Shown piece by piece: positions 1,677 through 43,621 of a DNA stretch of 64,000 bases. Within the stretch, counting starts at the first letter, position 1; the number at the start of each line of letters is the position of its first letter. The notes beneath the pieces are model-generated. The model worked only from the letters and a program-made list of their open reading frames with translations, searched no databases and was not told where the DNA came from. The stretch is from Ligula intestinalis. Its lineage: Eukaryota; Platyhelminthes; Cestoda; Diphyllobothriidea; Diphyllobothriidae. A program made the translations under genes and the position numbers. The stretch is taken from contig JAYGXS010000007.1 in assembly GCA_036362985.1 (NCBI GenBank), positions 8,477,912 through 8,541,911 on the forward strand. Direction: 5' to 3'.

Positions 1677-2007
1677 TTCAGTGAAAATTTCATGAGATTG
1701 GTCAGTAAATGCAGTTACCTTTCTTGTCATAATTGACGGCACGCAGACCATATCACAAGGAATATTTTCAACAGCTCATGTTAAAAGGTCATAAAATAAT
1801 GCAACGCGGAAACACCAGGCACCGCAGACATTGAAAAATGCCAAAAGGCGAAGTTCAGGCACTCTAGCCACTCTAGCACATAGAACTGATGGCGTAAGCA
1901 ACTATGACTGCGATGGGGTAATCAACTCGGTAGTTGCAGAATATAAGCCGATCCACGACGAATGAGAAGATTTAAAACACCAAAAGGGATAGAGGGCTCA
2001 AACCTAC

Positions 2008-2284
2008 CGCATATTATAGTTCGAATGAGAGAAGCGTGTCCCGGGCAATCTACAAGGGTGATTTGCAGAGCATCTACAGGAGACTCTGGACTGGACAGCT
2101 GAGGCGGAATGTTTGTTTTTACGGTGAAAGAGGAGAAGCCTAAATCCAGGGTGATGCCTCGCTTCTGACTCTGTGGATTTTTATCAAAGGCTGCTGTGCT
2201 GGCCACAGTGCTGAGAGCCTTGCACAGGCTGGTCTTTCCAGAGTCCACATGACCAAGCACGCCAACATTGACGTTGAGGATCAT
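2008..2284 (-). CDS. EEFSEC: Selenocysteine-specific elongation factor eEFSec, first coding exon
   Basis: eEFSec is the GTPase that delivers Sec-tRNA to the ribosome at recoded UGA codons. The exon encodes the start of the G domain: 'NVNVGVLGHVDSGKT' (P-loop GHxxxxGKT) within the first 20 residues, the switch I motif 'RGITLDLGFSSF', and G3 'DCPGHASLIRTII'. These are close to animal eEFSec, and the RGITLDLG form separates it from EF-1alpha and EF-Tu. The start at 2284 is chosen because the family begins a few residues before 'NVGVLGH'; the open frame extends upstream to 2356 but a good splice acceptor lies between. The exon ends in phase 1 at a donor GTAGGT (intron from 2007 leftward). Later exons are not in the window and should lie to the left. 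No stop or frameshift is seen, so I take it as a live gene, although an isolated exon fragment cannot be excluded. Confidence 0.85.
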
Positions 2285-2297
2285 GTTCACAGCCGAC

Positions 2298-2320
2298 TCT
2301 AAAGGGTGGAGAAAAGATAG
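2298..2320 (-). promoter_or_regulatory. Splice acceptor just upstream of the eEFSec start codon
   Basis: On the minus strand a pyrimidine-rich tract TCTTTTCTCCACCCTTTAG ends 14 nt before the ATG. Flatworms use spliced-leader trans-splicing, so this is either a trans-splice acceptor, giving a very short leader, or the end of a 5'UTR intron. The sequence alone cannot separate the two. Confidence 0.55.
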
Positions 2321-2450
2321 CTCAGCAGCTATTCGTAGGCCCATTCGTAATATCAACCGTAGGTAAGTAAGATCGAGGAAGTGTAATAGGAGTGTCCTTT
2401 TTGTTAATTACCCTGCAAATGTTGTGGCATGATGATGATTAACTGAAAAC

Positions 2451-2935: not shown

Positions 2936-3077
2936 ATGTTTGCCAAAGTGACGCGGCTTTCGAATTTGAGCCACCCATTTTTTTGCTCTCTATTCACGTG
3001 AATGGAGCCATTTTTTGCACATTGTTTGATATTACCATCAAAATAAAGTTTCCATCATCATCAACATTAACTTAAGA

Positions 3078-4746
3078 ATGGGAATATTTGCAGAACTTAG
3101 ACAGTCCAAAGATCCCTCTGTGTTAAAGGGACTGAACGGATTCCTCCAGTTTGACACCAGGCTTGCTGAGACAAACGTGACAGCCAAATTCCTCTCAGGG
3201 TGTATGGACCAGGGTGAATATCCGAGGCAGTACTGGAAAACTTTACGAAGAAATCATATCGCTGTTTCGTCGGCATCGCTAAGAAGGCATACGGAGAGTT
3301 ACCTTGAGACGATTAACGCGGGAATACTGGAACTCCAGCGGAACCTGGCTCAGAGGGCAGCGGTCCTCAACCATCTTGAAACTCACGAAAGAGTAACGTT
3401 TGAAGAATATGTACAAACAATAAGGAGCAAAAGAATCGAAGCCAGGTGGACCAAACTCCTTCGAAGTGTCCAACCATTAAAAGCGCCGACAACGCTCCCA
3501 AGCAATCCGGAGCGGTACATGCACAACTATTCTTCAATGCGTCTTGATAAAACTCTCTTAGAGGTACTATCTCTAGGCCCTAAGTTCTGCATTGCGGGAA
3601 AAAGACCGAGGCAACTAGAGTTAGAAACCCAATTTTAGAGCCTCCCTAGCCAGACTGCTGATCTAAAATCTACCAAGCCTAGAGACGTTGACTATCTCAA
3701 GTCGACGCTGGTGAACTGCTGCCAGCAGTATTTGAGAAAGGTCCCAACGAACAAATGCTCCTTAGCAAAGGCTCATCTGGATAGCCTAAGAGAACTCCGA
3801 AGAAACGAAAACATCGTACTGACTAGACCAGACAAAGGGTCCGGAATATTACTGATGAATAAGAATGATTAAGTTATGAAACTAGAATTGATCCTAGCGG
3901 ATCGCACGAAGTTCTCAAAATCCAAGAAGGGCAAGAATCGGACGGAGGCCGCCGAGGGTCAGTTAACTACAATTTTCAAAGATTTTCACAAAGAAGGTCA
4001 GTGGTCTGACAAAGACCTCGAAAGACTGAGACCTGTAGGTACAACGATACCCAGAATGTTATGGTCGTCAGAAAATCCGCAAACAGGGGTTACCATTGCG
4101 TCCCATCTTGGATATGAGAAACTCCCCTTATCATACTATTGCCAAATGGCTGGTAGAAACTATGAAGCCACTCGCAAGTGATCTATATCCCCAAAGCTTT
4201 AAAGACATGTTTGAGTTCGTTGAAGCTATAAAAAACATGAACGTTGGTGAAAGTAAGATGCTCTCCTTGGATGTATCATCCCTATTTACCAACGTACCCG
4301 TGGTAGAAACGATAGGCTATCTGTGTGACGTCATTAGGGACACGAACTACCAGGTAGGTATGCCCGTGGAAACCCTGAAAGAGCTACTCACACGATGCAC
4401 ACGAAATGTGTAATTTCTGTGCAATGCCCAGCTTTACAGACAGATAGATGGTGTGGCGATGGGCTCACCACTTGGCCTGTTTCTCGCAAATGTCTTTATG
4501 GGCAAGATCGAGAAAACGAGTCTAAAGGACACCATAGATGACCTTGCGTTCTACGGTCGATATGTGGACGATATTTTCTGTTCAGCATACCATAACGTTG
4601 ATACTGATGCTCTGGTCATGAAGTTTAACAACGCGCATCCATCTCTCAAATTTACTGCAGAGACGGAGAAAGACGATGAAATAGCGTTTCTTGATGTCCT
4701 TCTGCGAAGGCAAGATGATGGATCCATCCTGCGTAGGGTCTTCTGA
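3078..4746 (+). pseudogene. PLE reverse transcriptase, broken
   Basis: Frames join across three or more stops. The N-terminal part (3078-3638) is rich in charged helices. From 3700 the frame reads 'LARRP DKGSG'-type sequence ('VLTRPDKGSGILLM' near 3820-3860). The palm follows: 'RPILDMRNSPYHTIAKWL' (4096-), 'LSLDVSSLFTNVPV' (about 4265), 'GVAMGSPLGLFLANVFM' (about 4453) and the catalytic 'YVDDIF' (about 4560). 'LFTNVP', 'GSPLG' and 'VDDIF' are PLE signatures, unlike the YADD of the LINEs around it. A stop at 4412 separates two palm motifs. No function is expected from this copy. Confidence 0.85.
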
Positions 4747-5160
4747 AAGAAAACCTGGACGGGACAATACACCAACTTTAATCGTTTTTTCCTCTTAAAT
4801 ATAAAACGAAATCTAGTTCAGGGGTTAGCGGCTAGAGTACGACAGATTTGCTCTCCCGAAACTGTCGAAGCAGAACTCCAACAGCTGCAGTAGACACTTA
4901 TTGAAAATGGATACCCGGAGAGGTTCATCCTCAGGAATATTGGCGAGCGAGCCAAAAAGCCTGATACCATAACCGCAGAAAAGAAAGACGTATTCATTAG
5001 ACTGCCTTTCTTAGGCACTGCAACAAGAGAGCTAGTCAGACGGCGTCTAAGGACCGAAATCGCAGGCGCCTTCCCCGCGGCAAACTTACGAGTCTTCTTC
5101 ACGAACTCTCTCCTCCTACGATTAGGAGGTAAAGACCGACTCCCGTTCAAGGCCACATCT

Positions 5161-5613
5161 ATGTGTATTTACTCTTTCACTTGCCCCTGTGGAGCAGGAT
5201 ACATAGGCCGAACAACGAGGCACCTGGAAAAGAGGGTACGTGAGCACATACCGGCCTGGTTAATTAATGGTGAAACTAGATCGATCTCGAGTTCTATTCT
5301 AGCACATCTAATCGATACGAATCATCAAGTCGATACTAACAAAGCCTTTCAGGTTGTCTACCGGACACCAGCCAACTTTTCCAAGGGCCTACGCCAACGG
5401 GTGCTTGCAACAGCCGAAGCAGTGGCTATATGGCAAGCGAATCCGGTGCTGTGTTGTCAGAAGAAGCTGACAGAAGCCCTTTCACTTCCGTGGCCGACCC
5501 CGACGCCAGTGGGCGATCGCATTTTGCCACCACGCCCCAGTGACATTCGTTCGCTGCGCGCAAATAACAGCAATTATTCCCCCATGCATCTGCCCTCTGA
5601 TCAACCCCAATAA
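5161..5613 (+). pseudogene. PLE GIY-YIG endonuclease domain
   Basis: The open frame starts 'CIYSFTCPCGAGYIGRTTRHLEKRVREHI', holding the conserved tyrosine and 'GYIGRT' of GIY-YIG nucleases, the RxxEH arginine and glutamate region and the CxC pair found in PLEs. It is uninterrupted for 150 residues but is cut off from the RT by stops (about 4744-5160), so the protein would not be made as one chain. It lies about 150 bp before the right terminal repeat. Confidence 0.85.
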
Positions 5614-5774: not shown

Positions 5775-5816
5775 TGTGGCCTGATGATGATTTGCTGAAA
5801 ACATATGTTTGCCAAG
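5775..5816 (+). ncRNA. Hammerhead-like motif in the PLE terminal repeat
   Basis: Core pieces occur in hammerhead order: TGGC, CTGATGA, then GAAA, AC-ATAT-GT as a short stem III, TT, and GCCA pairing back with TGGC as stem I. Stem II (TGATTTGCT) pairs poorly, so this is probably decayed. The left terminal repeat has the same block with the first core C changed to A (2429-2450) and is cut in stem III by the CR1 insertion. Confidence 0.35.
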
Positions 5817-11559: not shown

Positions 11560-12069
11560 GCTTTCACTGGCATTAATTGTCGTTAACTTTAGCTTTAGAC
11601 GAAGATCCCCAACCAGGCCCATCAACGCAACCATGACACGGTTCATTACTATACGCCTTTATTTTAACGAAACACTTCCTTATACGTACTTCATCAAGAT
11701 TTCTTATCACTATTTTTTGTACATTTCTGCAGGTTACTATTTTTATTGAATTAAAAAATCGCATGCGTAAAAAGCTTCCTTGAGTTAGTTTTCTTCCGTG
11801 ATTATAGTTGTAGGTGGACAAAAAAAGTGTTAATCGAGCCAACCCCATGCAGCAGGGGTTGGCTCGATGGACAAACGGGATTCGAATTTCTCGGCACCAA
11901 TTAAAGCTCAATCCTAAGCCCGACTCTATGCCGATCGTCGGCACCGACTCTATGCCGACCATCGGCACCGATTCTATGTTGATATGCGTGACAAACTCGT
12001 CATAGATTCGTATTAGATTTATCGTCACCTCTAATTAGATTTGGCGGAGATTCGGCACCGAATTGTTAT
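11560..12069. repeat. Left arm of the long inverted repeat
   Basis: Pairs with 12187-12720. Matching stretches include CATCAACGCAACCATGACACGG (here) with its complement near 12627-12648, the 24-bp repeats, and the innermost GATTCGGCACCGAATTGTT block. Open frames on the two arms translate to similar peptides ('RIPFVxRANPC', 'KIVTCRNVQ') only because the DNA is repeated. Confidence 0.85.
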
Positions 12070-12186: not shown

Positions 12187-12720
12187 ATAACAATTCGGTG
12201 CCGAATCTACGCTGAATCTAATTAGCTGTGACGATTAACCTAAGACGAATCTATGTCGAGTTTATCGCGCATATCTACATAGAATCGGTGCCGATGGTCG
12301 GCATAGAATCGGTGCCGATGGTTGGCATAGAATCGGTGCTGACGGTTGGCATAGAGTCGGTGCCGATGATCGGCATAAAGTCGAGCTTGGATCGGTGCCG
12401 AGAAATTCGAATCCCGTTTGTCAATCGAGCTAACCCCTGCAGCACCTCCACCTACTACAATATCACGGAAGTAAAGTAACTCAATGAAGCTTTGTACGTA
12501 TGCGAATTTTTACTGCAACAAAAATAGTAACCTGCAGAAATGTACAAATAATAGCGATAATAAATCTTTGTTATGTACGTATAAGGAAGTGTCTCTTTAA
12601 AATAAAGGCTATAGTAATGGACCGTTTCATGGTTGCGTTGATGGGCCTGGTTGGAGATCTTCGTCTAAAGTTAAAGATAACGATAATCAATGCTGGGGTA
12701 ACAGAAGAAGATGATGTTAC
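12187..12720. repeat. Right arm of the long inverted repeat
   Basis: Reverse complement of 11560-12069 with substitutions and a different number of internal 24-bp repeats (about four here, about two on the left). Unequal repeat number between arms points to separate evolution or unequal exchange after the arms formed. Confidence 0.85.
12281..12384 (+). repeat. 24-bp tandem repeats, about four copies
   Basis: The unit is ATAGAATCGGTGCCGATGG followed by TCGGC, with variants ending TTGGC or ATCGGC. Each unit contains its own small inverted repeat (GCCGA/TCGGC). The left arm has two to three copies in reverse orientation at about 11928-11985. Repeats just inside the ends recall subterminal transposase-binding repeats of some DNA transposons. 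Confidence 0.8.
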
Positions 12721-14164: not shown

Positions 14165-14690
14165 AAGCAGGAAAGTAGCTGCGTGTGCCGGGTGTCGAAC
14201 CCGGATCGACTGCTTGGAAGGCAGCCATGCTAACCGCTACACCACACACGCCCGATTTTTTTGTGACTCAGCAAAACTTAAATACTGTAGTAGGATTTCG
14301 CTTAATCAGGAAATGTGTCCGCAGGGCGTGCAGCGCCTAGCCATAGCTGCAAGGTATGCACGCCTATTCAGTACGCTAGGTGCAAGCCGTGGCAGCATGT
14401 GTAGTGTGTACCGTCAATTAGGCCAAACGTTTTTCTAATCACCGAGGCGCTATAGAGTACATGAAAAAACGTTTACGATACCCTGAAGCACGGTAGGCTT
14501 TAAAGGGGAGCGAAATAATGGTGTACCAGTCAAGGAGGTATACAAATCTGGAGGCGTCTCCAAAAAGTTCAGCAGGTTTTGAGTGACTTGTCTCGCCTAC
14601 TATGACTTTCACTTGCAGCACGCTGTAGGGTGGATAATGCGACTTTACAGATTAGCTATCGTCTTTTAACACATCGCTTTGATTACACCT
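14165..14690. repeat. Duplicated block carrying tRNA-Gly, copy 1
   Basis: Besides the tRNA, the plus-strand downstream side shares with 19800-20528 the phrases GGGCGTGCAGCGCCT, GCTGCAAGGTA, ACGATACCCTGA, TCGCCTACTA(T/C)GACTTT and CTTTTAACACAT in the same order, with diverged spacers. The gene was therefore copied with at least 0.45 kb of flank. Confidence 0.7.
14181..14251 (-). tRNA. tRNA-Gly (anticodon UCC)
   Basis: The minus strand folds as a full cloverleaf: acceptor stem GCGTGTG with CACACGC (7 of 7 pairs), anticodon stem GCTGC with GCAGT and loop CTTCCAA (anticodon TCC), T stem CCGGG with CCCGG around TTCGACA. The internal pol III boxes are intact (GGTGTAGCGG, GGTTCGACAC). It reads GGA codons. 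Downstream T runs are short (TTT about 5 nt, TTTT about 25 nt after the end). It differs from the copy at 19804-19874 by one base in the T loop. Confidence 0.95.
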
Positions 14691-19799: not shown

Positions 19800-20528
19800 T
19801 TCTGCGTGTGCCGGGAGTCGAACCCGGATCGACTGCTTGGAAGGCAGCCATGCTAACCGCTACACCACACACGCTCGCTGCGCTAGCCTCTGCAGAACTA
19901 AGATGCAACAGGATTTTGCCCAATCAGTTAAAGGGAAATGTGTTGCAGGGCGTGCAGCGCCTTGCGTTCGCTGCAAGGTACGCTAGGTGAAAGCCCCTGC
20001 AGCATATGTAGTGTGTGGCGTTTACGGAATTCGACTTCTTCATAAACACCGAGATGTTCAAAATAACATGAACAAACGTCTATGATACCCTGAGGCAGGA
20101 GAGGCTTAAAGGGAACGCGATATGATCGTGTACACGCCAAACACGCATAAAAAGTTCTTTCCATACGCAGGCTTCTCAAATATCTTCAGCATTTTTAGAT
20201 TTTCGAACATGCCCGTTGAAAACACCAGAAGATGCTTTGGTGAACATACGTTTGTTTTCGATGAATTCTCGTCAGGCCTGTACACTTATGCCATAAATAA
20301 CTAAATAAATTACGCGGGTCGGTAGATAAAAATGTGCGGTTTTGAGGGGAAGTGGAGGGAGGCATAATGGGGTTCAAAAATCTGATCAGCCGAGAAAGGC
20401 GATAGGCTACATGATTATTGATCGTCGGCCAGCAGTTGTTTACTGATTTGTATCGCCTACTACGACTTTGAGTTGTTGTATGCTGTAGGGTTGTTTGTGG
20501 GATATCACCTTTTAACACATTTCTATCA
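19800..20528. repeat. Duplicated block carrying tRNA-Gly, copy 2
   Basis: Partner of 14165-14690 (see the shared phrases there). It is longer because of inserted sequence between the phrase near 20090 and TCGCCTACTACGACTTT near 20452. Confidence 0.7.
19804..19874 (-). tRNA. tRNA-Gly (anticodon UCC), second copy
   Basis: Identical to the tRNA at 14181-14251 except one T-loop base (TTCGACT), with the same full-length acceptor, anticodon and T stems and both internal promoter boxes. About 11 nt past the 3' end the minus strand has TTTTCCCTTTTTTT, a proper pol III terminator, so this copy is the better candidate for expression. Confidence 0.95.
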
Positions 20529-26969: not shown

Positions 26970-27152
26970 AACACATGTGAAGGGCATTAGCGACAAAGAC
27001 AAGCGAGACTAAGATGGCCATTTCTGGCTTATTAGTCATCGTCAGCTAGCCATGCACAGCCAAAGTGGTTTCATACCCGAGCCTTGAACTTCAGACCTCT
27101 CTGATCAGAGTCAAATGCCCTTGCCATTGAGCTACGAGCTCGTTGTCTTGCC
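26970..27152 (-). repeat. tRNA-headed hammerhead unit A (3'-truncated)
   Basis: Read on the minus strand from 27152: GCAAGACAACGAG, then a tRNA-like head with A box TAGCTCAATGG and B box AAGTTCAAGGC, a linker, a hammerhead (27007-27051) and a tail that follows unit B to TAATGCCCTTC and then diverges. It directly follows the tail of unit B, so A and B are tandem. Confidence 0.75.
27007..27051 (-). ncRNA. Type I hammerhead ribozyme candidate A
   Basis: Minus strand: GGCTAG / CTGACGA / TGACT-AATA-AGCCA / GAAA / T-GGCC-A / TC / TTAGTC. Stem I is GGCTAG with TTAGTC (all six pair, two G-U), the core CUGANGA and GAAA are intact, stem II has four pairs and one mismatch, stem III is two pairs, and cleavage would follow UC. 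This is the most complete core of the three. Confidence 0.7.
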
Positions 27153-27461
27153 AGGGATGTGAAATGGCAGATGCGCGTACACCGATGTGTTAGAGGGCAC
27201 ACTCGTCCATCCATGCTGCCGTTGGAGCTCAGGCTCGAGGCCACACCGCAAGGCGCCTAAGGATATAGGCAGAAGGACATTATTGACAAAAACGAGGTAA
27301 AGTTGAATGACTATTTGTGGCTTATTAGCCGTCCTCAGCAAGTCATAACCAAACCCATCTGTTGATCCGGAGACTGGTGCCCCACTCGAGCTTCGACCGG
27401 CGGTCTATTTAGTTAGAAGTCCAACGCCCTAACCACTGCGCCACGGGCTCGGTGTCTTGTC
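27153..27461 (-). repeat. tRNA-headed hammerhead unit B (full length, about 309 bp)
   Basis: Minus strand: CGACAAGACACCGAG, tRNA-like head with A box TGGCGCAGTGG and B box GGTCGAAGCTC, linker, hammerhead (27300-27344), tail with AATGTCCTTCTGCC, TTGCGGTGTGGC, GGACGAGTGTGCCCTCTAACA and CATCTGCCATTTC, then unit A begins. An internal pol III promoter ahead of a self-cleaving motif in tandem copies of about 0.3 kb is the arrangement of schistosome Sm-alpha repeats. Confidence 0.75.
27300..27344 (-). ncRNA. Type I hammerhead ribozyme candidate B
   Basis: Minus strand: GACTTG / CTGAGGA / CGGCT-AATA-AGCCA / CAAA / T-AGTC-A / TT / CAACTT. Stem I has five of six pairs, stem II four strong pairs. The first G of GAAA is C here, which should disable cleavage. 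The stem I bases differ from candidates A and C yet still pair. Confidence 0.55.
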
Positions 27462-27562
27462 GATTTTTAATCCGGAATATACAATGGCAGATAGGCGTGC
27501 ACCCATCAGGTACAGGACACACTCGTCCCGCTCTGGTGCCATCGGAGCTCACACTCACGCCC
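27462..27562 (-). repeat. Unit D, tail only
   Basis: Minus-strand tail sequence (GTGAGCTCCGATGGCACC, GGACGAGTGTGTCCTG, CATCTGCCATTG) running straight into unit B, so a third unit preceded B in the same orientation. Its head and hammerhead are replaced by an inverted piece. Confidence 0.65.
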
Positions 27563-27720
27563 GCAATAGTCATCGTAGCCTCCCTTGTCTTTTTCCGTAA
27601 TGTCCTTCTGCCTTTATCATTAGCTGCCTTGCGGTGTGGCTCGAGTGTGAACTCCAGTGGCACCATGGACGGACGAGTGTGTCCTCTAACAGGTCGCTGT
27701 TCGTTCATCTGCCACAGGAT
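27563..27720 (+). repeat. Unit E, opposite orientation, from mid-hammerhead to tail
   Basis: Plus-strand AATAGTCATCG (the end of the hammerhead) continues to GTAATGTCCTTCTGCC, TTGCGGTGTGGCTCGAG, GGACGAGTGTGTCCTCTAACA and CATCTGCCA. Together D and E make an inverted pair, which is why open frames on both strands here translate alike; neither is a gene. Confidence 0.65.
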
Positions 27721-28389
27721 ACAGTTTATATGCTATTGCATACCTACTGATACTGCTACGACAATTAATGGTACCCCCCTATGAAGGAAAGTTAACTGCT
27801 TGTGCATTGACTCCTTGATGGCCGACATGCTGATCGTAACTTGCTAAACTTTCATCACCCGTGCTGAACTTAGACGTGATGATTTCTCTATTTCCCTGGG
27901 GCTGGCATTAGACGGTGCGTTCGTCTGTGCGCTCTCCAAGTGGCGAAGTGTTATGGCCAAACGGAGTTTCAGTGCGGTATATGGATTGAGAAGGTTAGCG
28001 CACCTATAAATAGACCCGTAAACCATGACTCAAACAGCTCCCGGCCCACGCTTTTATCCCCTCCCGTGAGAATTTCGGTCTCATCGAAGTTTTTTATGTG
28101 TATGCGACGGGTAAATCGAGCTATACTCAATTACTTCCCACAACCATAGAAATTTACTTTAGGTTCCAGTATAACACGCGAAAACCCCATTTATTAAAAT
28201 ACGGGATAAGTGGTAATAAGACTTTAATAAGTGGGGCATATCAGGGCAAAGAAAAAAATTATTAAAAAATTTGAGCGTATAAAAGTAGAAAAATAGGAAA
28301 GATTATATAAATAATTAAAGGCCCGGCAGCAAAAAGCGCACCATAAATCGAATGTGCAACTACGGCACTATAGGTGACTGCTCAACCAT
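27721..28389. other. Intron sequence with no recognised element
   Basis: Short open frames without motifs; lies inside the Kunitz intron. Confidence 0.4.
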
Positions 28390-28985
28390 TCGGCAGAACT
28401 CAAAATACTGTGAATGGCCGAGATTAAAGTAAAGTGCAGTAAAAATAAAAATAAAAACGCAGCTCAGTAATAAATGTGAACCAAAGTACAAACTCAACTG
28501 AAACTCAAGTAAACTTACCGAAGAAAGCTCAACTAAAATAAGCTAACTAAACTAAGAACTAACTGACTAAAATTAAGGTAAATCAACGAGGGAAATGTAA
28601 ACTTACATAAGTTACACTAACTAAAATAAAAGGCTAATCTATAACAAAAATAAAAATAATAAAGCATACTAGAGGAGTAAGGACTAAACTTAAAACTGAA
28701 CTAAAATATAAATAATTTAACTAAGCCAAAATAACCAAAATAAGGTCAACTAAAGTAGTAAAGATTTTGATTCCAAAAGCAACTGCATGCATCTAAAAAA
28801 TCTAAAACTAAACTAAAACATAATTTAACTCACCAAACAAAGGTAAACTTAACTAAACTAAACTAACTAACTGACCTTAAAGGAAATCTAAAATTAAAAT
28901 ATAACTAAATAAAATAAAATAAAAACCAAAACTAAACAGACACTAAAAAATCTATAACCATAAATAAACTATTTATGGCGCTTCT
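28390..28985 (+). repeat. A-rich degenerate AACTAA tract
   Basis: About 0.6 kb dominated by AACTAA, AAATAA and ACTAAA variants on the plus strand, with few T or G runs: strong strand asymmetry and no exact period. It could be an old decayed satellite or poly(A)-derived sequence. No coding capacity. Confidence 0.7.
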
Positions 28986-29399
28986 TTTTGTTGCCAAATA
29001 TAAGATTATTCAGACTATTATGGAAGTTAAATTAAACTTCCACCCCTAGGACTAACAGTTTCGATTTCATCAGAGCTTGGTATCTTCGACATGCCAAGTA
29101 GACTTATCTGGACTTGAAAATTGGTCGACTGGTTAGGAACTTCCAAGTTGCCAACCATGCATCATGGATATAGTTACCTTCAGAGTACCGAGGTATGGCA
29201 AAAGGCAGTAGAATTGCATGCTAATTTGGAACTTACAATACCTGGAGTTTGTATGGCCGACTACTGGTGCCTACTAAGTCAGAAACTGTCATTACATTCT
29301 TCCTGCGATTGTCATTAAAGCTCTTCCGTTTGTAGTACTAGCCATTGTGCGGCTGCTGGCGGAACTCGAGAGTTGTTTTTTACGAAAGAATGGCACAAG

Positions 29400-29597
29400 T
29401 GAGTCCTAAGCAGATAGCAAAGACAGGGGAGACTGGAATGACTACTTCGGGCTCATTAGTCATCATCAGCCAGCCATACCCAACCCTAAATGACATCCCA
29501 CCCGAGCCTCGAACTCTAAGTAGTGCATCAACTGAGGATAGAACCCTTCAGAAGTCTAACGCTCTAACCTTTGGGCCACGGACTCGTTGTCTTGTCG
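29400..29597 (-). repeat. tRNA-headed hammerhead unit C
   Basis: Minus strand: CGACAAGACAACGAG, A box TGGCCCAAAGG, B box GAGTTCGAGGC, linker, hammerhead (29431-29475), and a short tail with GTCTTTGCTATCTGC. The flanks 29338-29375 and 29683-29722 are inverted copies of each other (about 36 bp, GTGCGGCTGCTGGC, ACTCGAGA) and resemble the family tail. Confidence 0.75.
29431..29475 (-). ncRNA. Type I hammerhead ribozyme candidate C
   Basis: Minus strand: GGCTGG / CTGATGA / TGACT-AATG-AGCCC / GAAG / T-AGTC-A / TT / CCAGTC. Stem I pairs in all six positions with one G-U. The GAAA box has its last A changed to G and stem II has mismatches, so activity is doubtful, but the fold matches candidates A and B position by position. 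Confidence 0.6.
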
Positions 29598-29722
29598 GTT
29601 TAGGTCGGGAGATATTGACACTTGTTGATGAAAGTTTACTGAACTCGCTAACGGAACTCAGTCATCGTGCCCTGCTTTGTGGTTCAGTCTCGAGTCCTGC
29701 CAGCAGCCGCACGGTGGCTAGT

Positions 29723-30520
29723 AGTCTAGGCAGATGAACATTGCTGCCGTCAGAAATTGGCGAAATTGCATCAACGAACAAGCCCCGTTTTCGATAGACG
29801 GACGTACATTCACTAATACTGACGGAATGGGGACAAAGAGACAACCACTCCCCGTGGACGCATGTTTAAGACTACTCCAATGCAACTTTACATGCTACTT
29901 GCAATCTGCTGCATTGCCAATTTTTAAATTCGATGTTGTGGGGCGGACCAAACGACTTTCACTTTTAAGGGGTTTATGTCTAAGACATATGGAAATGGAA
30001 AGGTTGTATGGTCAATTGGGTATACCATACCACCCCTAGTTCACCATACGTCAAGGCTAAGTGCGGAAGATCACATATGCGAACGGGGGCTCATTAGGTT
30101 CTTTCAACCACTGAATTGTGCATCCACATTCAAATTGCGTTCATCGAGAGCACTTCTAGCTTTATTACTGCTCTGCACTGGAATCCAGGAAAGTCGTCCT
30201 ATAAAGTGAATCTTTTAGCGAATAAATAGAGGAGTTTAGGCTCCAATAGAGCCTTCACACTGAGACTATCGAGTTTTCCATAGCGGGGTAAAATGAATTA
30301 TTTCAGCGGACTGGTATTTCTTACTTATTTGCCTTCGACAGTCGATCTTTATTTAAGCCTTGTCAGCCAAGATGTGTGAGATGCAGGGCAACATGTAAGG
30401 CTCATACTTCAAGCCGTACTCAGCCCATGTTGGTGTCCATTTCTCATGCGTGAATCAATCGGTAGCGCAGCACTTATAAGCTGTAGCAAGGCTTCAAATG
30501 GCTAATCTCTCTCTCTAATA
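29723..30520. other. Intron sequence with no recognised element
   Basis: Open frames (29734-30039, 29976-30209) carry no motif. Confidence 0.4.
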
Positions 30521-40785: not shown

Positions 40786-41640
40786 CCTCTTAAATTGGTC
40801 GTTTTAAATGCCAGATCACCGATTAATAAAATGCCTCTGCTCCAGACTATGGTTTTCGTCACCCGCCCAGACATTGTTATGGTAACTGAGACATGGGCAT
40901 CGGCCTCTGTAGCTGACTCAGAACTCTCTGTTCTTGGCTATGAATGCGTTCGGAACGATCGAAACAATGGCCATGGCGGAGGAAGCTGCATCTATATTAA
41001 GCAGCCACTTGCATTTCTCCCGTTGGACTTTCCACAATTCACAGCGGTGGAGGAGAGTTGCTGGCTACGAGTTGTTCTAAAAAACAAATTCCCCTTACTT
41101 GTTGGCTGTGTTTATCGCCCACCTAATGCCAATGCAGACTAAGATCTTTGTCTCTCGCAGGCATTTCATGCCGCAGCTGACTTGAATCTTAAGTATTGCT
41201 TGATTGCAGGCGATTTTAACCTTTCTGACGTGCAATGGTTTCCACCATCCGGTCCTTCAAAGTTCGAGAACATACTTGAGGCAATAGATATCGGCATGTG
41301 GGATCAGGTAGTCGATTTTCCCATCGAGGAGCAAACATACGCGACCTAATTTTTTGTAGGGGATGCGAACCACTTTCAGTGTCATCCTTAGACGCACTTG
41401 GGAGTTCAGACCATCTTACAGTTGTTAGTGAACTAGAACTGGAGGCGAATAAAACATTTTCCCAAAAGTATAGTCTTTATCATGACTTCCGATCAGCAAA
41501 CACGGCTGACCTACTGGCACATCTAAACGCTCTCGACTGGTCTGAATTTTTCCAATGTTTAGATGAAAATGTTTGTACCGATGCACTGTACAAAGTTTTG
41601 GATCCACTCATCCTCCACTTTGTCCCCCTGTAAGAAAGTA
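40786..41640 (+). pseudogene. Element 1 APE-type endonuclease
   Basis: The frame begins 'LKLVVLNARSPINKM' and runs through 'PDIVMVTETWAS', 'RNDRNNGHGGGSCIYIK', 'VGCVYRPPN', then past a stop 'CLIAGDFNLSDVQW' and, one frame over, 'NIRDLIFCRG' and 'LGSSDHLTVV'. These are the E, Y, DFN and SDH motifs of APE endonucleases that nick the target for reverse transcription. At least one stop (41142) and one frameshift (about 41300) break it. Confidence 0.85.
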
Positions 41641-43621
41641 ATACATGTCAAGGATGAAGTGTACCTTCCTCTGTCTTTCCGTCGTAGGCTGCGTAAACTC
41701 TCTCGTCGTTTGCATCGGCAGAACGACACTTCCGTTCTGCCCTTGATCACACTGATCTTTGAGCAGGCTAAGAAGCTCTCCGAAGAAAAGCAGGTAGCCG
41801 ATGAGGCTCACTTCGCTGAAAATCCTTCCCTAAATGTTGCGAAACTCTTTTCGCGTACAGTAAAAGCGCAGAGGAAAACGCAACACCCCATACTTCAAGA
41901 TGCTTTAGGAAACCCCATAGCTGACGCTAAGTTGACCGCCGATAGCTTCAATGCGTTCCTATCCAAAACGTTTAGTGAAAGCTCGTTTGCTGCACCTCCG
42001 GTTATCCAGGCTTGGACGGGTGCCATACTCGAAACCATAAGTTTTACCGTCTGGGATGTGACTGTAGCCATTCGTCGTTATCGTCAATCCTATAGTCCAG
42101 GACCAGATAGCGTCCCAGTTAGCCTTCTAAAAGATGAAGCGAATGATATCTTTCCGTCTATTCTTTGTAAGGTATTTAATCTTGCTCTTGAGAGCGAAAC
42201 CTTTCCTTCGTTGTGGAAGGAATCGCACATAATGCCTATTCGAAAGCATGGCCGATCGACGTCATTCGACAACTTTAGGCCAATAAATACACTTCCCGCA
42301 GCCTCGAAGATCTTGGAGACCTTAATCAAAGAAAAGATGATGCGTCACTTGACAGAAAACAACCTGCTCAGTACAGCTCAACATGGCTCTCTCGAGAAAC
42401 GATCTTGTGACACCTGTCAGCTCTCTTTCTTTGAGTATGTGCTGCAATCTAGAGACAGCGGTTTTGCCACTTATAGCATCTATTTTGATTTTACTAAGGC
42501 CTTTGATCGGGTCGATCATAACCTCCTCTTTCTGAAACTAGCCTCCTTCGGCATAGGTAGCAAGCCTCTGAACTTCATATCTTCCTATTTGGATGCTCGC
42601 ACACAACGAGTAAAAATTTCCAATGTTATCTTCAACCCCACACATGTGCGGAGTGGAGTTATATAGGGTAATGTACTGGGTCCGCTCCTATTTTGCCTGT
42701 TTGTCAACGACGTTTCAGATTGTTTTTAGCATGGCAGACCCTTCATGTACGCTGATGATTTAAAAGTCGCTTATCGATACAAACCGGCAGATCGCAACAT
42801 CGTGCTCGAGCTGATGAAAAAGGATCTTCAGGCTTTCGCCCAGTGGTGTTGCACATGGCGCCTCACCCTTTCATGGCTCAAATGTTCCGTTATGGTTGTT
42901 GGCGACGATCATTAACCAGAATTAAGCCTTGACGGCCACGAACTAAATGTCCCAGGAGTTATCAAGGATTTGGGCATTTCTACTCTAATAGTCTCAATTT
43001 GTCAGAGCACTGTGCCCTCATAGTCTCGAAAGCACGCCGAACCACCAGATTTATCCTTAGAAATTTTAAGCCTATCAAGGTTAGAACTAGCCTTTATAAT
43101 ATGTACGTGAGACCTAGTCTTGAATACTGCTCGCCCCTATTCAGTCTTCTGCGCGCTAGTCAACGGAAGAAAATAGAATCGGTGCAGCACTTCTTCACTA
43201 GAAGAGTTTTCACTACAGAACACCGTAACTTAACCTACCAAAAAAGGTGCGAACTTATAAAGCTGGATCCCCTATGGCTTCGTCGATTGCAGAAGGGTCT
43301 TTTTTACTGTTTAAAATTTTGAATGGTCAAACATTTAATCCCCTTAGTACAATAAGGCAGCTTGAGCACTCTCGACACGCCAGTCATCGAGACGTATATT
43401 TATTTCTTCCTATGGCACGTACAGTTAAGTACCGGCAATTCTTTTCAGTAAATGCCATATCAATCTGGAATAAGCTGCCCAAAAGTATTAAAACCCAGCA
43501 AAACTACCCCATGTTTAAGAGAGCTGTAACTAGTTTTCTACATTCAGGAAAACTTTCACGAATTTTGGGTGCTGACTCGGTGGAATCTCTCTTTCACTCT
43601 GATGGCGTTCGTGGACTTTGA
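41641..43621 (+). pseudogene. Element 1 reverse transcriptase
   Basis: A 367-codon open run ends at 42666 and holds 'YSPGPDSVPVSLLK', 'NFRPINTLPAASKILE', 'STAQHGSLEKRSC' and 'FDFTKAFDRVDHNLL'. A stop (TAG, 42664) interrupts the GVxQG motif; sense continues 'GNVLGPLLFCLFVND' and the intact catalytic 'MYADDLKV' near 42735. The C-terminal part lies at 42999-43621 ('YVRPSLEYCSPLF', 'FSVNAISIWNKLPKSI'). At least three inactivating changes are visible. Confidence 0.9.

Follow-up and report, generated by a model that had tools for sequence, protein, structure and literature searches.

Introduction

The schistosome repeats Sm-alpha and Sj-alpha are SINE-like and combine tRNA-derived sequence with a type I hammerhead ribozyme (HHR), the Sm-alpha representative W36.2_W001 being 335 bp long and the copy number having been put above 10,000 (PMC8490949, PMC2770079, PMC4918200; these papers, like the others below, are cited for the passages concerned). 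Sm-alpha has been linked to tRNA-Gln (PMC2770079, PMC4918200), with Glu named in one figure legend of PMC4918200. Schistosoma mansoni also harbours W-elements, which are satellite-like and carry HHRs with an extremely short stem III, for which functional evidence has been reported (PMC8490949). The metazoan non-LTR retrozymes described by Cervera and de la Pena (2020) are units of 170-400 nt with type I HHRs, occurring as tandem dimers and in many genomic copies, and platyhelminths are named among the invertebrates with retrozyme-like repeats (PMC7229834). The same source states that Penelope-like elements (PLEs) carry atypical type I HHRs, and mentions dimeric action of amphibian HHRs, or vertebrate retrozyme HHRs (PMC7229834).

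We describe here a repeat of this kind in a tapeworm, Ligula intestinalis, starting from a stretch of 64,000 nucleotides of contig JAYGXS010000007.1 (assembly GCA_036362985.1), which is called the window in what follows. The kind is already known, from schistosome Sm-alpha with its tRNA sequence and HHR, and the tapeworm family is a new relative. Like Sm-alpha and Sj-alpha, as these are portrayed in the passages cited, it is a flatworm SINE-like repeat joining tRNA-derived sequence to a type I HHR; unlike Sm-alpha, with its tRNA-Gln, it has a tapeworm host and a head that reads like tRNA-Arg(UCU) by its anticodon loop. It is plausibly a family separate from Sm-alpha. The minimal hammerheads of PLEs are said, in the title of a 2017 report by Lunse, to cleave as dimers; going by that title, the present HHR resembles them in its very short, palindromic stem III, and differs from them in its stem II of 4-5 bp and in being housed in a short tRNA-headed repeat without coding sequence. 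Unit size, HHR type and tandem units are shared with the metazoan retrozymes, whereas copies of less than two units, the frequency of inverted pairs and a tRNA-like A box set the present repeat apart from them. The W-elements are likewise flatworm repeats whose HHR has a very short stem III; unlike the tRNA-headed repeat they are satellite-like, and the main text of PMC8490949 is without the word tRNA. No description of a tapeworm hammerhead SINE was found among the matches listed in the open-licence PMC literature, where PMC10886601, in the passages concerned, treats cestodes only with regard to TRIMs and has hammerheads only in the title of a reference. The initial annotation of the locus had recognized in it the logic of Sm-alpha or of metazoan retrozymes, a view which the tRNA-like head, the type I HHR and the further copies now support.

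The repeat units of the locus

The units had first been delineated as stretches of about 309 bp standing head-to-tail, and their coordinates and anatomy proved correct, the strand being the minus one; the tRNA-like head and the HHR do lie at equivalent internal positions in units A and B (Table 1). The heads of B and A are 309 bases apart, within the 150-450 bp of the tandem, type I HHR-bearing units of metazoan retrozymes, and the two units show 65% identity across 189 aligned columns. A third copy with both head and HHR, unit E, lies 2 kb from A and B, and profile searches added the tail pieces D and E0 as well as the inverted pieces C and F of the plus strand. The description of the locus as a tandem is therefore right for the passage from B to A, but the arrangement is not a simple tandem, the series made of the tail piece D, B and A on the minus strand facing the inverted C on the plus strand. 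The region between the two unit clusters (28200-28960) is an A-rich, degenerate, AACTAAA-like stretch of low complexity. Elsewhere in the window, an exon-like frame at 1922-2407 (minus strand) has a Pfam match, to the elongation factor Tu GTP-binding domain, and presumably belongs to the selenocysteine-specific factor eEFSec; two sets of 24-base tandem repeats, at 11920-11978 and 12278-12377, are separated by about 360 bases and have related units, complementary in part.

Table 1. Positions in the window of the repeat units, of their hammerheads and of the A box.
Feature	Position	Strand	Description
Unit A	26979..27152	-	tRNA-like head and linker, then the hammerhead plus some 30 bases past the cut site; 3'-truncated
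Unit B	27153..27461	-	complete, from the tRNA-like head through hammerhead and tail to the joint with the next head
Unit D	27477..27571	-	tail piece running head-to-tail into unit B
Unit C	27559..27721	+	inverted piece, 5'-truncated within the hammerhead (3' half and tail); broken end common to D
Unit E	29408..29596	-	head and hammerhead (CUGAUGA...GAAG...AUU, segment 29476-29425)
Unit E0	29614..29768	-	tail piece running head-to-tail into unit E
Unit F	29235..29407	+	decayed copy, inverted and opposite E; what remains of its hammerhead lies at 29254-29304
A box of unit A, TAGCTCAATGG	27124..27134	-	equivalent site in B 27443-27433, in E 29578-29568
Hammerhead A	27007..27051	-	core intact (CUGACGA...GAAA...AUC); cleavage predicted between 27013 and 27012; stem III AUGGCCAU, a palindrome
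Hammerhead B	27300..27344	-	CUGAGGA, with CAAA replacing GAAA: core broken; stem I 5/6 kept

Hammerhead A reads, from 27051 to 27007, GGCUAG-CUGACGA-UGACU-AAUA-AGCCA-GAAA-UGGCCA-UC/UUAGUC, where the slash marks the predicted cut, placed at the same bond by the initial annotation. Its core boxes (CUGACGA/GAAA/AUC) are the only intact set among the window copies A, B and E, the corresponding boxes being CUGAGGA/CAAA/AUU in B and CUGAUGA/GAAG/AUU in E. Intact cores had been implied for both A and B: this holds for A, and CUGANGA is present in both, but the core of B is broken because CAAA stands for GAAA (G12 to C). Similarly, what was seen as a five-position hairpin in stem II is paired at four of its five positions, both in A (with an A-C mismatch) and in B (with a C-A mismatch). 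The T variant of the core, CUGAUGA, had been attributed to a unit C; the neighbouring piece at 27559-27721 is devoid of the CUGANGA half, and the T variant found here is that of unit E, outside the interval then considered. Stem I is GGCUAG/UUAGUC in A, GACUUG/CAACUU in B and GGCUGG/CCAGUC in E, one of its pairs being A-U, U-A and G-C in turn, with pairing kept throughout. A relaxed hammerhead descriptor ranked A at the top of the window, and one of 20 Markov shuffles equalled its score; a single copy alone therefore proves little, and it is the family that carries the evidence.

Copies across the assembly

The family was sampled in 29 stretches of 10 kb (L-numbers below), taken at round-number positions of contigs C1-C7 of the same assembly and totalling 240,954 non-N bases. 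A covariance model, R1, built from 26 copies, gave 28 matches at E <0.001, of which four belong to the window and 24 to the sample, where they are spread over 14 of the 29 stretches, a result to be read as a count and not as a test, as 26 of the 28 matches (22 of the 24 for the sample) belong to the training set. The repeat family is thereby directly observed, as is the density of its HHR copies, about one per 10 kb of sample; the copies are dispersed, with differing flanks, and are devoid of coding capacity. Should this density hold across the seven contigs, which total 519 Mb, some 50,000 copies would be present, a figure that is rough because copies cluster. A lack of other genomic copies with a conserved core, which would have refuted the initial annotation, is excluded by 24 more HHR copies in 241 kb, conservation reaching 0.881 in the HHR core and 0.813 in the A box, against 0.735 over the whole unit. 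The only search that leaves the hammerhead out relied on a profile for which just the heads of the three window copies served as training set. It retrieved 13 heads in the sample, six of which are followed by CUGANGA-14 nt-GAAA with at most one mismatch, something equalled by 0-7 of 200 letter shuffles; downstream of the remaining seven there is no good core (2-4 mismatches, equalled by 24-198 of 200 shuffles).

Judged by the divergence of its copies, the family is old. Among the 27 copies 100 bases or more in length, mean identity to the majority sequence is 73.6%, hence about 26% divergence, the best reaching 84.4%, and the 305 kb yielded no young copy. Such divergence makes current activity doubtful and, combined with the fact that all 11 scored core positions are intact in only five of 26 copies, suggests that most copies are fossils. 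Comparison of the translated repeat with protein databases, for mis-annotated relatives in other tapeworms, returned nothing, and the exact consensus pattern had no match (0) among contigs of viruses and prokaryotes, which an animal repeat would lead one to expect.

A probable type I hammerhead common to the family

The consensus derived from profiles of all matches is a complete type I hammerhead, ATGACTGG-CTGATGA-TGGCT-AATA-AGCCA-GAAA-TGGCCA-TT-CCAGTC, comprising a 6-bp stem I, CUGAUGA, a stem II with an AAUA loop, GAAA, stem III AUGGCCAU and AUU; in a second profile stem II starts with C. The core is more conserved than the other columns of the hammerhead segment (0.82 vs 0.73), A13 and A14 being the most conserved columns of all, and both CUGANGA and GAAA can be read in the letters of eight of the 26 copies. 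N7 is T in 13 copies, C in 10, A in two and G in one, while H17 is T in 17, C in eight and G in one, hence other than G in 25 of 26.

The fold can be followed in the 22 copies that come from outside the window, in a test that was not blind, its pair layout having been drawn with copy A and the all-copy consensus in view. Paired cells amount to 72.2%, against 64.1+/-1.4 after shuffling (0/500 shuffles as high); changes on both sides of a pair are found in 25 cells (10.5+/-2.7 shuffled, 0/500), further pair types number 29 (21.6+/-2.2, 0/500) and pairs with a both-side change 11 (7.6+/-1.6, 15/500), the last two counts, of pair types and of pairs, being in trials of the method the more robust measures. 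Letter shuffles ignore the kinship of copies. When the 3' partners are made to slide, pairing in these 22 copies falls to 24-45%. All 26 copies together, gathered by profiles that include the hammerhead, behave similarly, with 73.2% of cells paired vs 65.8+/-1.2, none of 500 shuffles matching them in paired cells, in both-side cells or in covariation score, two in pair types and 31 in pairs with a both-side change. The conserved core is thus accompanied by three stems, with an open-ended stem I and compensatory changes, a covarying fold that we observe directly. Pairing is weakest at the outermost position of stem II, which is open in 14 of 26 copies. At least two rows of the alignment (L026 and L011:9128) are shifted over the core, although their letters hold both boxes.

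These features have to be weighed against the view that the repeat is an ordinary tRNA-derived SINE, in which the hammerhead-like block is due to chance or is a relic, its hairpins serving elsewhere, for example in recognition by a reverse transcriptase. The silence of Rfam goes in that direction. At gathering score the hammerhead models matched neither the window nor a single one of the 14 copy-bearing stretches; they gave nothing at E up to 10 for A, B and six copy-bearing stretches, and nothing at E up to 1 for the HHR of A alone or for the L005 copy; the match that a structure search was supposed to yield is therefore missing with Rfam, while the family-built model finds the copies by construction. 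The very short stem III may be the cause of this miss. (A sub-threshold match to the HDV ribozyme at L006:8788-8863, plus strand, with 26.9 bits for a gathering score of 50 and an E value of 8.4, is most likely a chance one.) RNAalifold, likewise, predicted 0 consensus pairs on the alignment, most cores carry a change, and a competing hairpin, GCCA-GAAA-UGGC, can be drawn in many copies, with 67.3% of its cells paired. This hairpin is, however, no better paired than shuffled columns (66.7%, 216/500) and does not covary, whereas the hammerhead fold does; the variation at N7 and H17 is of the sort that a hammerhead tolerates, with a single G at H17 in 26 copies, and the consensus is a full hammerhead. 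We consequently give little credence to chance or relic, and take the type I hammerhead reading as supported, consensus, fold, column behaviour and head-only search being in agreement.

Stem III and proposed action as a dimer

In the commonest stem III three pairs would leave two middle bases, which is no normal hairpin loop, but the eight bases are self-complementary. A perfect palindrome is present in seven of the 26 copies, under three sequences, ATGGCCAT (in five copies), AAGGCCTT and ATACGTAT, and a copy in L012, which is not among the 26, has AUACGCGUAU after GAA. Compared with 5000 shuffles, the palindrome column pair 38-43 stands out clearly (four shuffles as high) and 40-41 weakly (185), pairs 39-42 (1085) and 37-44 (2720) being not above shuffles. 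A strict palindrome descriptor, devised after copy A was known, matched twice in the window and the 29 stretches, and never in 10 shuffles.

By computed energy, the double hammerhead of the consensus on two strands is at -39.3 kcal/mol, the best dimer fold being at -41.1, while for a single strand the best fold is at -16.7 and the lone hammerhead at -9.3 kcal/mol. Copy A fares differently, with +2.3 for the HHR vs -14.2 for the best fold, and -16.1 vs -41.2 for the dimer, so that A alone prefers another fold. We suggest that the ribozyme would work best as a dimer, through its palindromic stem III, dimeric action having been reported for the HHRs of vertebrate retrozymes (PMC7229834).

The tRNA-like head

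The A box, a direct observation too, has its eight fixed positions (8/8) in 10 of 17 heads; the B box is weaker, with 8/9 at best. The consensus separates the two by 45 bases, which is the spacing of internal boxes in a tRNA, and has a complete D stem, GCUC/GAGC. Its anticodon loop, CUUCUGA, would presumably read UCU, like that of tRNA-Arg(UCU). The Rfam tRNA model came up, below threshold, at two heads only (L013, 26.4 bits; L023, 21.2 bits) and not at unit B, and ARAGORN found no tRNA in the heads or in their consensus. We infer that the head is a decayed tRNA-derived sequence. A scan of the window alone for A and B boxes was discarded as evidence, being not discriminating (35 pairs vs an average of 20.3 in 50 shuffles). 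The window has, separately, two nearly identical tRNA-Gly(TCC) genes, at 14180-14251 and 19803-19874 (minus strand), 5.6 kb apart.

Neighbouring Penelope-like elements

A coding remnant at 3030-5613 of the window, with a GIY-YIG region, appears to be Penelope-like on a reading of its translation; Pfam gave no match on this remnant. About 170 bases further on, at 5777-5814 (plus strand), lies a second hammerhead-like motif (5781), in which CUGAUGA and GAAA are 9 nt apart, stem III is a 10-base palindrome and stem I has 4 bp, and homologous, more decayed 3' ends follow the PLE remnants of L014 and L023. Descent of the SINE hammerhead from that of the PLE was considered and rejected, as no likeness beyond the core could be seen by eye. 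The core boxes are separated by 9 bases in the PLE motif and by 14 in the SINE. A reverse-transcriptase frame is also present at 41563-42663; Dibothriocephalus latus provides its best match (65% identity, covering 78% of the query), Sparganum and Schistocephalus being among the next ones, which fits a host at or near the Diphyllobothriidea. In Sparganum proliferum and Spirometra erinaceieuropaei, Penelope elements account for about 10% of the genome, and 36,816 and 35,223 SINEs, respectively, have been annotated (PMC8166898, in the passage cited).

One rival view would make the units terminal repeats (pLTRs) belonging to a Penelope-like element, and not independent SINEs. Besides the HHRs known from PLEs and the palindromic stem III of the window motif, PLE coding remnants have four HHR units 231-442 bases from their 3' ends, two of these units in L014 (as one inverted pair) and two in L023, where two head-to-head PLE remnants (244-2633) are flanked on their outer sides by hammerhead units of the same direction. 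Yet with three PLE pieces used as queries in the sample stretches, all other units proved to be more than 1 kb away from any match, though remnants lacking these pieces would be missed; the distance between core boxes differs, as just noted, with no other shared sequence seen by eye, and the head of the units is tRNA-like, its A box being conserved. A pLTR origin is, on balance, improbable. As the source of a partner reverse transcriptase, PLEs are a fair candidate, and no more.

Insertion ends, tandems and inverted pairs

The ends of the copies were placed on a model running from tail, joint and head to hammerhead and tail, which ends at position 432 and in which the cut falls, by our count, after position 290. 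The 3' ends of 31 matches comprise 16 at 296-346 (6-56 past the cut), 11 at 386-431, in the next tail, and four elsewhere; those at 427-431 may be clipped by the end of the model, and one, that of unit B, continues into A. Insertions starting or ending exactly at the hammerhead cut site are unsupported, with 0 of 31 3' ends at the cut, so that there is no sign of insertions made from an RNA cleaved at its two ends. The 5' ends are spread, which suggests truncation.

Pairs of copies facing head-to-head in inverted orientation occur at six loci, the window (27570/27559), L011, L014, L024, L025 and L029, with truncated 5' ends within about 25 bases of each other, the plus arm of L011 being a weak match (E 0.004). 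The two arms are clear sisters only in L024 (84% vs means of 59%). In L029 (74%) and for B/C of the window (76%) they exceed the means and remain within the best other copy, B/C just below the best of B; they are near the means in L014 (65%) and below them in L011 (50%), the overlap in L025 being too short. These arm identities speak against inverted pairs being always sister copies issued from one hairpin. Our guess is that such pairs might arise by joint insertion of two RNAs primed from both strands.

That the family would be a satellite, built of tandem arrays, rather than a mobile interspersed repeat is very unlikely: the head-to-tail units of 27571-26979 and partial tandems in L006, L022 and L024 would fit, but no long array was seen in 305 kb, the longest run being about two units in 10-kb stretches, the copies are scattered, with differing flanks and truncations, and the neighbours A and B, 67.8% alike, are hardly closer than copies at other loci (means of 63 and 65%, maxima of 77%).

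Discussion

We can understand this repeat, with a high degree of confidence, as an old, dispersed, non-autonomous tRNA-derived SINE of the Sm-alpha and metazoan-retrozyme kind, with about 310 bases per unit and a predicted hammerhead that would work best as a dimer. Its life cycle might be sketched as follows. RNA polymerase III would transcribe from the head, where A and B boxes would form the internal promoter, and would often proceed across more than one unit, the tail joining the next head where units stand in tandem. Two hammerheads, of neighbouring units or of two transcripts, would then pair via their self-complementary stem III (the common sequence of Table 1 and its compensated versions), and the paired double hammerhead would cut after AUU or AUC. 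RNAs of unit length produced in this way may be closed into circles by ligation, as the literature has it for other metazoan retrozymes, and a reverse transcriptase of the host, probably Penelope-like or of a LINE, would copy the RNA to new sites. One may go further and propose an obligate double-hammerhead SINE, in which a stem III of changing palindromes would make two units or two transcripts necessary, copied in trans by PLEs with palindromic hammerheads and leaving head-to-head pairs as the trace of joint insertions; this extended scenario is speculative, and we see it as possible though rather doubtful.

The association of tRNA-derived SINEs with predicted self-cleaving ribozymes is, with this family, extended from schistosomes to tapeworms. 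The family may number tens of thousands of copies, none of those examined being reported by the Rfam models. If the dimer reading is true, the copies would offer a natural series of stem III palindromes for testing double-hammerhead cleavage, and the repeat would become a candidate SINE partner for Penelope-like elements.
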